From positions 1 through 43,063 of the forward strand of contig JAKIUE010000006.1 of NCBI GenBank assembly GCA_021647715.1: a stretch of 43,063 nt of DNA, given 5' to 3'. Both the position numbers and the translations under genes were made by a program. A model generated the notes under the pieces. The model was not told the DNA's origin, made no database searches, and saw only the letters and a program-made list of their open reading frames with translations. The DNA comes from Sulfurovum sp. Lineage in GTDB: Bacteria; Campylobacterota; Campylobacteria; Campylobacterales; Sulfurovaceae. How positions within the stretch are numbered: position 1 is the first letter of the stretch; every line of letters begins with the position of its first letter. Below, in pieces: positions 11,566-20,144 of the stretch.

Positions 11566-13923
11566 ATGAATCAACTCCACATCTACCCTACATCAAGAGC
11601 CCTGAGAACCATAAGCCAAAACCATAAAACCCAAGAGGGTTTCCTCCCTACACTCATGCGTATGGATGAGTTTGAACAACGTGCTATGCTACTAGAAAAC
11701 AAAACGCAGATAGACCCTTTGCAACGTATCTTACTTTTACGTGAAGCTGCTACCTTTGATGCCTTTGAAGACCTAAAACTTGACCTCTCACTCGTGCGGT
11801 TTTTTACCAAGAGTGATGCACTGTTTAAGTTTTATGAAGAGTTAGCAGGAGAGGGGGTAGACTTTCATACTTTGGCAGAGGCAGATGCTTATGCAGAGTT
11901 TGGGAAACATCTTGAGATTTTAGAGCGCTTGTTGGAGAACTATCAGAGACTACTAGCCAAACATAGCCTGACAGATAAAGCATTCATCCCTCAAAATTAT
12001 GTCATCAATGATGGGTTTGTAAAGTCGTATGAGAGTATAGAGATACACCTAGAGGGGTATTTGAGTCACTTTGAACTAGGACTGCTAGAAAACATAGCCA
12101 AGCTCGTACCACTAAGTATACACTACACCACCAGCAAGTTTAACATCAAGATGCAAGAGCGTTTTGAAGCGATGGGCATAAAACTTCCCAACCATAGTCA
12201 CTGTCACTTTTCGCTAAGTGAGTCCAAACTCTTACAGTACGAAAAGAACAGTGAGACATTAGAAGCCAAAGTCTACGCCGTAGAAGAACGCCAAGAGCAG
12301 ATAGCTTTAGCCTTTACGCATATAGAGCAGATGGTACAATCTGGCATCAACCCTGAAGAGATAGTCCTCATCTTGCCCGATGAAAGTTTTAAAGAACACT
12401 TCACACTCTTTGACACACACAACAACCTAAACTTCGCGATGGGGTACGACTACGCTAATGGGCGTGTCTATAAGTCTTTAGAGGCACTCTATAGGTACTG
12501 GCAGAGTAGGGATGATGAGAGTAAGAAGCTTTTAGAGAGATATGGATTTAATATTGAGGCATTAGATGCATTGGCTAGTGGTAAAAAGATAAGGGTAGCA
12601 GAGTTTTTTAAACGCATAGATGATTTGGGTTTACATGATAGTCCGCTCATAGAGGGTGATAAGAAAGAGAAGTTTAATGAGAGGGTACACGAGAGGTACT
12701 TGCACTTCACCAAAGTACTAGAAACCCAAGCACTCCCCACTACAGAGTGGCTCTTTTTGTGGTTAAAGTCTCTGAGTAAAGTCACGATGGATGACGTACG
12801 TGGTGGGAAGATAACCGTCATGGGAGTCCTAGAGACCAGAGGAGTACGCTTCGAGGGCGTGGTGATAGTAGACTTCAATGAAGGCGTAGTACCTGCAAGC
12901 TCTAGTAAAGACCAGTTTCTAAACTCCTCCGTGCGAGCTTTTGCAAACCTGCCTACCAAACACGACAGAGAAGCCCTACAAAAGCAGTACTATAAACGCC
13001 TACTAGAACAAGCCAAAGAGTCCGTGATACTCTATAGTTCTTCTGATAATAAGTTGCCCTCAAAGTTCCTCTACGAACTAGGCTTAGACAAAGCAGAGCA
13101 GGTACAAGCACAGTTTGATTTGTTGTACGCTCAACCATCACAGATAAGTGAACAGGAAGACCCTGTAGTGGAAGCCTTTGATGCTACTGCTATGACATGG
13201 TCTGCCTCACGCCTAAAGACCTACTTAGACTGTAAGCGAAAGTACTACTACCGCTACATCCAAAAGCTACAAGCTAAAAAAGATGATGAGATGAACGAGG
13301 GGGCATTTCTGCATTCACTGCTAGACCACTTGCATAGAGAGAAAGATAGCTTTACTAGTGTAGAAGAGATGCAAAAAAATATAGATGTATTACTAGACAG
13401 GCTCCTACCCTTTGATGACTCACAAACAGCGTACAAAAAACTACTATGGAAGAGTAAGCTCAAAGGCTTTGTTTCTAGCCAAGTAGAGCATTTTAAGCAT
13501 GAATGGAGAGTGGTAGAGCGTGAAGCAGAGTTCCAAGGCAACATAGGTGGACTTAAGTTCAAAGGACGCATAGACCGCATAGACCAAAACCCCACCCACA
13601 CCCTAGTGCTAGACTACAAAAGTGGTAGCACTAAAGAGGCACAAAAAACCAAAAACATAGACACACTCAATGACCTACAAATGAGTATCTACTATCAGAT
13701 GCTACAAGACAAATACCAAAATATCAGCCTTGCCTTTGTCAAGCTCTTTGAGGGTGGAGAAGTAGAAGAGATAACAGCCCTTGAAGAGAAAAACGAACGT
13801 TTAGCAGATGTCATCATAGAACTCAAACAGACCAAGAGCTTTGTGGCTGAGAAAACTGAGGATTTGCAGAAGTGTAAATGGTGTGAGTTTGCTTTGATGT
13901 GTGGGAGAGGAGAGTATTTATGA
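11566..13923 (+). CDS. addB: AddB-like PD-(D/E)XK nuclease with Fe-S cluster motif
   Basis: Nuclease and inactive-helicase partner in double-strand break processing, acting with AddA to make 3' tails for RecA. The 785-residue protein opens with MNQLHIYPTSRAL, has a degenerate UvrD-like region, and ends in a RecB-type nuclease (GRIDRIDQ, then LVLDYKSGS). Four cysteines frame the nuclease, at about 556 (YLDCKRKYYYRY), 770, 773 and 779 (CKWCEFALMC), as in the Fe-S staple of AddB. I chose ATG 11566; a GTG at 11518 in the same frame lies inside the preceding terminator. The stop overlaps the next gene by 4 bases (ATGA). Family members in Campylobacterota are divergent, so orthology to AddB is by architecture. 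Confidence 0.85.
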   Translation: MNQLHIYPTSRALRTISQNHKTQEGFLPTLMRMDEFEQRAMLLENKTQIDPLQRILLLREAATFDAFEDLKLDLSLVRFFTKSDALFKFYEELAGEGVDFHTLAEADAYAEFGKHLEILERLLENYQRLLAKHSLTDKAFIPQNYVINDGFVKSYESIEIHLEGYLSHFELGLLENIAKLVPLSIHYTTSKFNIKMQERFEAMGIKLPNHSHCHFSLSESKLLQYEKNSETLEAKVYAVEERQEQIALAFTHIEQMVQSGINPEEIVLILPDESFKEHFTLFDTHNNLNFAMGYDYANGRVYKSLEALYRYWQSRDDESKKLLERYGFNIEALDALASGKKIRVAEFFKRIDDLGLHDSPLIEGDKKEKFNERVHERYLHFTKVLETQALPTTEWLFLWLKSLSKVTMDDVRGGKITVMGVLETRGVRFEGVVIVDFNEGVVPASSSKDQFLNSSVRAFANLPTKHDREALQKQYYKRLLEQAKESVILYSSSDNKLPSKFLYELGLDKAEQVQAQFDLLYAQPSQISEQEDPVVEAFDATAMTWSASRLKTYLDCKRKYYYRYIQKLQAKKDDEMNEGAFLHSLLDHLHREKDSFTSVEEMQKNIDVLLDRLLPFDDSQTAYKKLLWKSKLKGFVSSQVEHFKHEWRVVEREAEFQGNIGGLKFKGRIDRIDQNPTHTLVLDYKSGSTKEAQKTKNIDTLNDLQMSIYYQMLQDKYQNISLAFVKLFEGGEVEEITALEEKNERLADVIIELKQTKSFVAEKTEDLQKCKWCEFALMCGRGEYL

Positions 13924-16746: not shown

Positions 16747-17172
16747 ATGAAAATGACAACAGTATTAAAACCTGCTGACGTAACTCGTGACTGGGTTTTG
16801 ATAGACGCTGAAGGTAAAACTTTTGGTCGTATCTTAACTGAAGTAGCGACACTTCTTAGAGGTAAACATAAACCATCATTTACACCAAATGTAGACTGTG
16901 GTGACTACGTAGTCATCATCAATGCTGAAAAAGCTAAATTTTCAGGTCGAAAACTAGAAGATAAAGAATACTTTACACATTCAGGTTACTTTGGTTCAAC
17001 TAAAAGTAAAAAACTTGACGACATGTTAGAAAACCATACTGAAAAGCTTTTCAGATTGGCAGTACGTGGTATGCTTCCTAAAACGACTTTAGGTAGAGCA
17101 ATGATCAAAAAACTTAAAGTGTATGCAGGTTCTGAGCATCCTCATACAGCACAAATCAATAAGGAAGCGTAA
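16747..17172 (+). CDS. rplM: 50S ribosomal protein L13
   Basis: Early-assembly protein of the large ribosomal subunit. The 141-residue sequence has the family pattern from start to end: [51 protein letters not shown], then YFTHSGYFG, and the [30 protein letters not shown] signature. It is followed after two bases by rpsI, the usual pair. Length is normal. Confidence 0.99.
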
Positions 17173-17174
17173 TC

Positions 17175-17564
17175 ATGGCTACTATTTATGCAACAGGAAA
17201 AAGAAAAGCGGCTATCGCAAAAGTTTGGATGACTCCAGGTAAAGGTGATATGCTTATCAATGGTAAAACACTTAATCAATGGCTAGGTGGACACGAAACA
17301 CTTAAAATGAAAGTGAGACTTCCATTAGAAATCACTAAGCAATTAGACAGTATGAATATCAAAGCTACGACACTTGGTGGTGGTTATGCTGCTCAAGCAG
17401 ATGCACTTAAGCATGGTATCACTAAAGCGTTGGTAGCTTACGAACCAACATTTAGAGCACTTCTTAAGCCAGAAGGTTTACTTACTCGTGACTCAAGAGT
17501 TGTTGAGCGTAAGAAACCAGGTAAGAGAAAAGCAAGAAGATCTAGACAATTCTCAAAACGTTAA
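17175..17564 (+). CDS. rpsI: 30S ribosomal protein S9
   Basis: Small-subunit protein whose basic C-terminal tail reaches the P-site tRNA. The sequence has [14 protein letters not shown] at the start, [34 protein letters not shown] and the terminal [24 protein letters not shown]. The final Lys-Arg is conserved in the family. AAGGAAG at the end of rplM acts as its ribosome site, so the two genes are coupled. Confidence 0.99.
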
Positions 17565-17618: not shown

Positions 17619-18413
17619 CTAAAATAAAACCCAATGATTTAGAAGATACAAAGCCCCTAAGTGCATACTTTTTATTAGTGCCATCGCAGTAGTATTCCCA
17701 ATCTGGCATACCCCACAACGCTTCCCTTCATAAAGAGCTCTAATAAAATATATTCCTATGAGTACAGCTATACTGAGCATGAGATAGCTTTCAAATATTT
17801 TTAGATAGGGTATTAGGCTACTAAAGAACGTAACCACTAAGCCTATAAGCCCTAGTAAAAGAGCATATTTTATGAGGGTTAGTATCTTATCCGAGTAGGG
17901 AGATATGTTACATGTGGCTTTTGCATCTGTGTTACTTAGTCCTTTTAACTTGTTTTCAAAGATGACTTTTTCTTTAGGATTTAGCCTGGCTATGAAAGTA
18001 GAGCCTAACAGATAGTCATTTTTTCTTTGTATGAGTACTGCTAGGTCATCGTGTGCGGTAAGGTACTGCTGTTTTCCTTGGGCATCATCGTATGCTACTT
18101 TGATGGTCTTAGCACGCTGGGTTACTGCTGTAAGGTTAGGGTAGTAGGCTGTACTTTCAGTAGGGGTTAACTCACCTTCTTTTGTAAAGATACTAGGGTT
18201 CATTACCTCTAAGAAGCTGCCATCTTTTTGTTTGATGACGATGACGTTAAGTGGAGAACCTATTTGAAAGGCTGCTAGTCCTTCTAATGCGTTTGCATTG
18301 ATGGTGTCTTTTAAGTCAGTGATGAGTATGTGTAGTGTCTCATCAAAATGGCGTACTGTGCCACCAAATTCAAATCCTGTTTGTGTGGGATATTGTATGA
18401 TATTTCGTATCAT
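17619..18413 (-). CDS. Membrane protein with an inactive peptide-deformylase-like domain
   Basis: Residues about 1-155 align by eye with peptide deformylase: GLAAFQIGSPLNVIVI (45-60) matches motif 1, MNPSIF follows, ESTAYYP (86-92) stands at EGCLSVP, and QRKNDYLLG (129-137) stands at QHEIDHLxG. The metal ligands Cys, His and His are thus Thr88, Arg130 and Tyr134, and the catalytic Glu is Lys131, so it cannot be a normal deformylase. Two membrane helices (about 178-200 and 204-226) and a tail with CGVC (233-236) follow. This fold-plus-membrane arrangement is unlike housekeeping Def. It lies downstream of sqr and a small ORF on the same strand. A binding or regulatory role is inference. Confidence 0.78.
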   Translation of the reverse strand: MIRNIIQYPTQTGFEFGGTVRHFDETLHILITDLKDTINANALEGLAAFQIGSPLNVIVIKQKDGSFLEVMNPSIFTKEGELTPTESTAYYPNLTAVTQRAKTIKVAYDDAQGKQQYLTAHDDLAVLIQRKNDYLLGSTFIARLNPKEKVIFENKLKGLSNTDAKATCNISPYSDKILTLIKYALLLGLIGLVVTFFSSLIPYLKIFESYLMLSIAVLIGIYFIRALYEGKRCGVCQIGNTTAMALIKSMHLGALYLLNHWVLF

Positions 18414-18448: not shown

Positions 18449-18613
18449 TTAGTGACTTTTGCTTACAACGATTAACATTTTGATATTAATCACTATAAAT
18501 CTAAAAAATTGCCAGATTTTGCATGTACGCATTTTACGTGCAAAGCTCCCTGGAATCATAGTAAGGTTAAACTGTTCATTTAGAGCGAAATTTTCTTCTT
18601 CTTTTTTTTTCAT
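18449..18613 (-). CDS. Small basic protein of 54 residues
   Basis: On the minus strand, AAAAGGA lies 6 bases before an ATG at 18613. The frame encodes 54 residues: a charged start (MKKKEEENFALNEQFN), then IPGSFARKMRTCKIWQFFRF, a hydrophobic stretch (FIVINIKMLIVV) and a final SKSH. The strong ribosome site, the mixed amphipathic composition and the fit between sqr and the deformylase-like gene support a real gene. I do not recognise the family. The overlapping plus-strand frame at 18459-18743 runs into the sqr coding region and looks like a shadow. Confidence 0.6.
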   Translation of the reverse strand: MKKKEEENFALNEQFNLTMIPGSFARKMRTCKIWQFFRFIVINIKMLIVVSKSH

Positions 18614-18653: not shown

Positions 18654-20144
18654 CTATTCTGGGATAAAAGTCCAACCTGGTTTGAGTTTTGCTTTCCAGA
18701 TAAACATGTGATGAAGAATATGTTTTATCCAGTGACCTGCTAGACCTATCTCTCCAAAGGTATAATCTGTATCTCTACCAGTTCCTGGGTATTTCTCAAA
18801 GTCAGGAACTACAGGATAGACTGTCATTGCTGCGGCACTTCCATCTAATATACCTTTACCAGCAGAGGCTACACAAGCAGCACCCATTTCTGCCATTGAG
18901 GCTTCATGTAAGTGAGCATCTTTACCTTTTTTGATCATATCACAAACTGAATGTGCTACTGCTTTACCTATGATACCAGCAGGCATACCTGTTCTTGGAG
19001 GTGTAGGGTTGATGGCTGTACCGTTTGGAGATGTCATGGGTTTAGAGATGAGATGTGGAGGTGCAAAAGCAATACCACATGCAAAGATATTTGAAAAACT
19101 TGGGTTCTGGTAGGTACTTGGCCAGTCAGATGCTTTCCAATTTTCGTATGCTCCTGCGTCATACTTGGCATCTACTTTCATAAATCCATTGGGAGCAAAA
19201 AGTACATCAGTAATATCTGATCCATCTTTATCATATGCTTTAAATCCGACACCAGAGAATGGAGGGATAAGCATCGCAAAGTCAAAAGTCTCTTCATGTT
19301 TTGTACCATCTAGTAGCTCATACTCTATTTTGCCATCTTCTACTTTAGAAGTATGTGCACCGATAATCCACTCTACATTACGTTCAGCATACAAAGACTC
19401 TGCAAAGAGTTTAGAAGACACAGCGTATCCTCCTACTTTCATGTGCAGTCCACCCATACCAAAGTCACCGAGGAAGGCTTCATTAGATATCCATTTGATA
19501 TCTAACATATCTCTGACACCTGCTTTTTTAGCTTCATGTTCGATGTTGAAGATGTATTCAAAAGCAGCACCTTGACAGGTGCACATACCATGACCCGTAC
19601 CTACAAGAATCTTTTGTTTTTCACCTGTGCCATTTTCTTTTGCTTTCTTGGCTTTTTCAAATACTTGTTTAAGCTCTAAATTAGCATGTATAGCATGTTC
19701 TGCAGTACAAACTGAGACTGTATTGGTTCCCATTTGTCCCTTCCCATTACCAAGTCCTGGTGTAGCATCGAAGTTTAGTTTAGGACCTGTTGCATTAATG
19801 AGATAGTCATATTCTAACTCTTCTGTTTGACCTAGTGAATCTTTTTTGGTTGATTCTATGACAATAAATGGTTTGTCACTGCTCTCTTTGCCATTTGGGT
19901 GTATGGCTTTTGCAAGTGCCTGTTTGTAGACAATACCAGCTTTTTCATACACTGGAGCCAAAGGAAAGACTACATCTTTCTTTTGCATTTGTCCCACACC
20001 TACCCAAATATTTGATGGAATCCAGTTCCATTGAGAGTTGGGGGTCACTACTACCACCTCATGTTCATCTCCCAGCCATTTTTTTGAAAAAGTCGCAGCG
20101 GTATGTCCTGAGACCCCACCACCCATGATTACAACACGTGCCAT
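18654..20144 (-). CDS. sqr: Sulfide:quinone oxidoreductase family flavoprotein
   Basis: FAD enzyme of the SQR/flavocytochrome c sulfide dehydrogenase family, which oxidises sulfide and reduces the quinone pool on the membrane surface. N-terminal FAD motif GGGVSGHTAA (8-17); second FAD region LINATGPKLNFD; Cys146, Cys188 and Cys190 (GTGHGMCTCQG) and a Cys in MGAACVASAGKG near residue 430 can supply the redox sulfur site; the C-terminus GLAGHWIKHILHHMFIWKAKLKPGW resembles the membrane-binding end of SQR. At 496 residues it is longer than type I SQR, and I cannot fix the type. AAGGAGGA (20151-20158, minus strand) precedes the ATG. No signal peptide is seen. Confidence 0.8.
   Translation of the reverse strand: MARVVIMGGGVSGHTAATFSKKWLGDEHEVVVVTPNSQWNWIPSNIWVGVGQMQKKDVVFPLAPVYEKAGIVYKQALAKAIHPNGKESSDKPFIVIESTKKDSLGQTEELEYDYLINATGPKLNFDATPGLGNGKGQMGTNTVSVCTAEHAIHANLELKQVFEKAKKAKENGTGEKQKILVGTGHGMCTCQGAAFEYIFNIEHEAKKAGVRDMLDIKWISNEAFLGDFGMGGLHMKVGGYAVSSKLFAESLYAERNVEWIIGAHTSKVEDGKIEYELLDGTKHEETFDFAMLIPPFSGVGFKAYDKDGSDITDVLFAPNGFMKVDAKYDAGAYENWKASDWPSTYQNPSFSNIFACGIAFAPPHLISKPMTSPNGTAINPTPPRTGMPAGIIGKAVAHSVCDMIKKGKDAHLHEASMAEMGAACVASAGKGILDGSAAAMTVYPVVPDFEKYPGTGRDTDYTFGEIGLAGHWIKHILHHMFIWKAKLKPGWTFIPE

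Follow-up and report, generated by a model that had tools for sequence, protein, structure and literature searches.

Pseudoenzymes such as the pseudophosphatases keep the fold of an enzyme family and are retained by selection after catalysis is lost (reviewed in PMC10211241), a pattern shared by the deformylase-like gene described here. Literature searches yielded no pseudoenzymes of the peptide deformylase (PDF) family, no paper on a PDF-like gene or a small protein occurring with sulfide:quinone oxidoreductase (SQR), and no paper joining deformylase and Sulfurovum. Most SQRs carry two C-terminal amphipathic helices that are important for membrane attachment (PMC9666304), and SQR types II, III, and IV, but not VI, have been reported for S. 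denitrificans (PMC4584964; PMC7952632).

The window, i.e. the whole 43,063-nucleotide stretch of Sulfurovum sp. DNA that was analyzed, encodes at 17619-18413 (reverse strand, ATG start, 264 aa) a putative membrane-anchored pseudo-deformylase, hereafter PDFL. It is the usual third gene of a single-strand cassette, SQR, small protein, PDFL, spanning 20144-17619; the initial annotation had likewise placed sqr and the short ORF in one orientation with this gene, and both lie upstream of it. PDFL is probably a helper of sulfide oxidation and not a protein-processing enzyme.

Fold and active site of the deformylase-like protein

Residues 3-149 of PDFL matched Pfam PF01327 (93.9 bits, 9.8e-27; cut-off 22.8 bits). 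The score for NCBIfam TIGR00079 was 64.2 bits, under the equivalog cut-off of 103.95, and PDFL fell far under all curated NCBIfam deformylase cut-offs. An AlphaFold2 model built with 24 aligned relatives had a mean pLDDT of 82.7, with residues 1-20 poorly modelled, and its top Foldseek matches in the PDB were the E. coli and H. pylori PDFs (E 4e-10 to 8e-10, TM about 0.74 by target length). The predicted structure argues that the PDF fold is kept over residues 1-160. A canonical Def is encoded by a second gene of the same genome (162.7 bits), so deformylation is covered elsewhere. Common to PF01327 deformylases and PDFL are the fold, strand order, NP pair, Glu86 of the EGCLS region, Arg100, Gln129, Asp133, and part of motif 1. 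The two differ in that only PDFL carries a membrane tail and three conserved cysteines, stands beside SQR, and belongs to a separate clade.

The phmmer alignment to solved PDFs placed EGCLS over E86-S-T88-A-Y90 and QHExDHLxG over Q129-R130-K131-N-D-Y134-L-L-G. Thr88 accordingly takes the place of the metal-binding Cys, Arg130 that of the first His, Lys131 that of the catalytic Glu, and Tyr134 that of the second His, exactly the substitutions named in the initial annotation, whose view of a fold kept and a chemistry lost is in agreement with the Pfam match, the PDF-like model, and the replaced residues. Its statement that motif 1 is kept holds for much of the motif; the first Gly of GxGLAA, a loss not mentioned there, has become Leu43.

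The same substitutions run through the 110 distinct PDFL relatives aligned from across the Campylobacterales. Position 88 is Thr or Ser in 102 of these sequences and Cys in three, none of which has HExxH; position 130 is Arg in 87 and Gln in 17, position 131 is Lys in 82 and Gln in 16, and position 134 is Tyr or Phe in 102. His at position 134 occurred in none of the 110, and none combined the metal Cys with HExxH. Neither outcome that the initial annotation named as contradicting it was seen, be it a predicted structure lacking the deformylase fold or homologues whose intact metal site aligns elsewhere. Set against 20 canonical Defs, the alignment shows clean switches mostly at active-site columns (G43>L, H130>R, E131>K, H134>Y, and S90>Y). 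C88>T/S extends through much the greater part of the family, and the majority of members have G45>A, although the 17619-18413 copy retains Gly. Scaffold residues common to PDFL and Def were Y8, P9, N72, E86, R100, Q129, D133, and G137. These alignments characterize PDFL as a putative non-catalytic pseudoenzyme in which every metal and catalytic residue has been replaced.

Full-length relatives were found in many Sulfurovaceae genomes and in eight further families of the Campylobacterales. When 31 PDFL representatives and 20 canonical Defs were placed in one tree, the former grouped as a single clade apart from Def (support 100/100), consistent with an apparently single loss of catalysis in an ancestor shared by several Campylobacterales families. 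Pairs of close relatives with unsaturated dS gave dN/dS values of 0.078 and 0.096, which point to strong purifying selection, and the PDF domain evolves more slowly than the membrane tail. Conservation in more than 100 genomes under such selection places the pattern beyond chance.

The genes of this group are probably misnamed as deformylases, since the Pfam deformylase threshold is passed and a Sulfurovum mangrovi record (NZ_CP087125.1) is so named. At positions 12001-12816 of that locus PDFL is annotated as two 'peptide deformylase' genes owing to frame changes; the record is labelled a plasmid, yet carries rplM, rpsI, and mnmG.

The sulfide oxidase and the small protein

The gene at 18654-20144 (reverse strand, 496 aa) had Aquifex SQR (3hyv) as its closest solved relative (132 bits), compared with 25.6 bits for the archaeal Acidianus enzyme and 17.8 bits for the human one. 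The three catalytic cysteines are in place in the aligned regions, as expected of a true SQR. The Aquifex enzyme is of type I, the type with which type IV SQRs group. The cassette is also present in genome G475, presumably S. denitrificans, and because type VI is not among the types reported for that species, we tentatively infer type IV for the Sulfurovum enzyme. Its C-terminus apparently forms a single amphipathic helix, in contrast to the two of most SQRs. The idea of a special SQR C-terminus peculiar to genomes with PDFL was rejected, as the same tail occurs in genomes without PDFL.

Directly downstream of SQR, at 18449-18613 on the reverse strand, lies a 54-aa ORF belonging to a set of 53-54 aa proteins, with the core xRTCxIWQxxRFxxINxKMxxVVxKSH and no match among Pfam and NCBIfam families. 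Relatives keep P, RTC, Q, RF, IN, KM, VV, and KSH with few exceptions, which argues that the ORF is a real gene. A C-terminal amphipathic helix is predicted at residues 32-53 (model pLDDT 69, moderate), and we conjecture that it could replace the helix missing from SQR. Cys31 is not strict, being Asn in some relatives; a four-cysteine site shared by PDFL and the small protein is consequently not general.

The small protein is a near-constant, unannotated companion of this SQR type in the Campylobacterales. Diverged copies accompany an SQR of about 55% identity in Flavobacteriaceae, where PDFL is absent; the pair is therefore broader than PDFL, and the small protein may be the more general finding. 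The sole occurrence of PDFL in Bacteroidota was in a Lutibacter MAG with a complete cassette of the Campylobacterales type, its SQR 77-78% identical to the 18654-20144 enzyme, besides a second SQR and small protein of the 55% type. It was set aside as a case of Bacteroidota PDFL because the co-occurrence of the two types makes contamination or recent transfer likely.

Several irregular loci were also encountered. An apparent SQR-small protein fusion (locus L182) was discarded because its ORF reads across a gap in the assembly (X residues) and also changes frame. Another locus, L113, had seemed to lack SQR; there, within positions 1-1130, the contig opens with what appears to be a short piece of SQR, separated from the small protein by a transposase-like gene. 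In genome G177 a second SQR (67% identity; L197:2930-4603) precedes a diverged small protein whose C-terminus is altered, both upstream of more membrane and oxidoreductase-like genes.

Membrane tail and conserved cysteines

Beyond the PDF domain, PDFL contains Cys168, two membrane helices (about 176-194 and 206-224), Glu229, a basic stretch bearing C233-G-V-C236-Q237, and a weaker hydrophobic helix over residues 235-263 that runs to the C-terminus. The two helices and the CGVC tail (233-236) are as first described, and among the relatives the membrane part is conserved along with the loss of the metal site. C233, C236, and Q237 are present in all 110 sequences, and C168 and E229 in 109 each, so that outside the shared scaffold the most invariant residues belong to the new part. 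No hydrophobic N-terminal signal was apparent in PDFL, and together with the positive-inside rule this suggests that the PDF domain, Cys168, and the CxxC face the cytoplasm.

One interpretation of this tail is that PDFL is itself a sulfur carrier, Cys168, Cys233, and Cys236 taking sulfane sulfur from SQR or serving a redox or metal function, with the PDF domain as scaffold or lid. Hardly any residue of the PDF domain is as invariant as the three cysteines, Gln237, and Glu229, the cysteines are predicted on the same side of the membrane, and SQR, the partner enzyme, produces zero-valent sulfur. However, searches of PDFL against Pfam and NCBIfam gave no match to a known sulfurtransferase or metal motif, the cysteine trio could equally be structural, and the variable Cys31 of the small protein argues against a general four-cysteine site shared between the two; we consider this interpretation unlikely.

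Conservation of the cassette and proposed role

Of 41 PDFL loci sampled, 35 had SQR and the small protein directly upstream on the same strand, the conserved neighborhood to sqr extending over many families. Across these loci identities were 68-90% for SQR and only about 27-76% for PDFL. A search with the small protein in bacterial and archaeal genomes gave SQR directly upstream in 77 of 80 loci; in 55 of the 80, SQR preceded and PDFL followed the small protein, and in 18 SQR was present with no PDFL adjacent. Among 399 genomes sampled across the order, many of the genomes being drafts, 196 had the small protein and 120 had PDFL, all within those 196, giving none among the 203 genomes without the small protein, a tally confounded by kinship, which its Fisher value ignores. 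In this sample 99 of 128 PDFL copies were directly downstream of the small protein, the others being second or relocated copies; 23 of the 120 genomes had PDFL only away from the small protein. One genome contained an overlapping small protein-PDFL pair without SQR, besides a complete cassette. The 18 genomes with an SQR-small protein locus and no adjacent PDFL were checked individually: 14, which are drafts, had no full-length PDFL and four had one elsewhere, suggesting that PDFL is dispensable for SQR.

Relocated copies had no recurrent same-strand partner across the group. As alternative partners, recR was rejected because it is divergent and confined to one subgroup, and so was the neighborhood in Sulfurimonas-type genomes, where the shared local gene order is limited to a small set. 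Five Sulfurimonas-type loci (L083, L085, L087, L088, and L249) carry PDFL away from SQR, mostly as second copies. The convergent neighbors rpsI (17175-17564, forward strand) and rplM (16747-17172, forward strand) lie outside the cassette and are near it in many, not all, Sulfurovaceae.

Results are consistent with PDFL assisting a type I/IV-like SQR at the membrane, without catalysis of its own and together with the small protein, the reading that we favor with moderate confidence. Support for a role in serving SQR comes from the preserved gene order and from co-occurrence, both circumstantial, and support for accessory status from the frequent occurrence of SQR and the small protein without PDFL. 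According to this proposal, a PDF-fold domain devoid of catalysis would have gained a membrane hairpin and a C-terminal hydrophobic helix and would work for the SQR-small protein pair as an anchor, assembly factor, or sulfur-handling subunit. The small protein would sit on the membrane via its amphipathic helix and dock SQR, with its one apparent C-terminal helix, while PDFL would hold or assemble both through the rebuilt T/S-Y-R-K-Y surface of the former active site. Cys168 and CxxCQ, both predicted to lie at the inner face of the membrane, could then form a thiol, sulfane-sulfur, or metal site. Only tentatively do we extend this to a membrane complex that would carry out sulfide oxidation in sulfur-oxidizing Campylobacterota and consist of SQR, an overlooked small subunit shared with Bacteroidota, and a repurposed dead deformylase whose invariant cysteines receive or conduct the sulfur made by SQR.

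Alternatively, PDFL could have a general membrane function in sulfur-oxidizing Campylobacterales, with its co-transcription with SQR incidental. The relocated and second copies away from SQR would fit such a function, as would the ability of SQR and the small protein to manage without PDFL, but cassette adjacency outlasts changes in the flanking genes over many families and the relocated copies have no other recurrent same-strand partner across the group, making this quite unlikely. The initial proposal that PDFL senses or binds nascent or N-formylated peptides (e.g. the formylated N-terminus of the small protein or of SQR) would agree with the retained fold, Gln50, and much of motif 1 and with the slower change of the PDF domain. 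It is very unlikely, as bulky or charged residues now stand where the old cleft had small ones (G43>L, S90>Y, H/E>R/K, and G45>A in the majority) and, rpsI/rplM proximity in part of one family aside, the recurrent partner is a sulfide oxidase and not the ribosome or translation machinery; some peptide binding by PDFL is possible.

If the link between PDFL and SQR is true, SQR is served by dedicated partners in a dominant group of sulfur oxidizers of vents and sediments, and no published test of them came up in the literature. Such partners would include a 53-aa protein small enough for annotation to miss, and a deformylase fold put to non-catalytic use in the membrane would clearly exemplify the repurposing of an enzyme.
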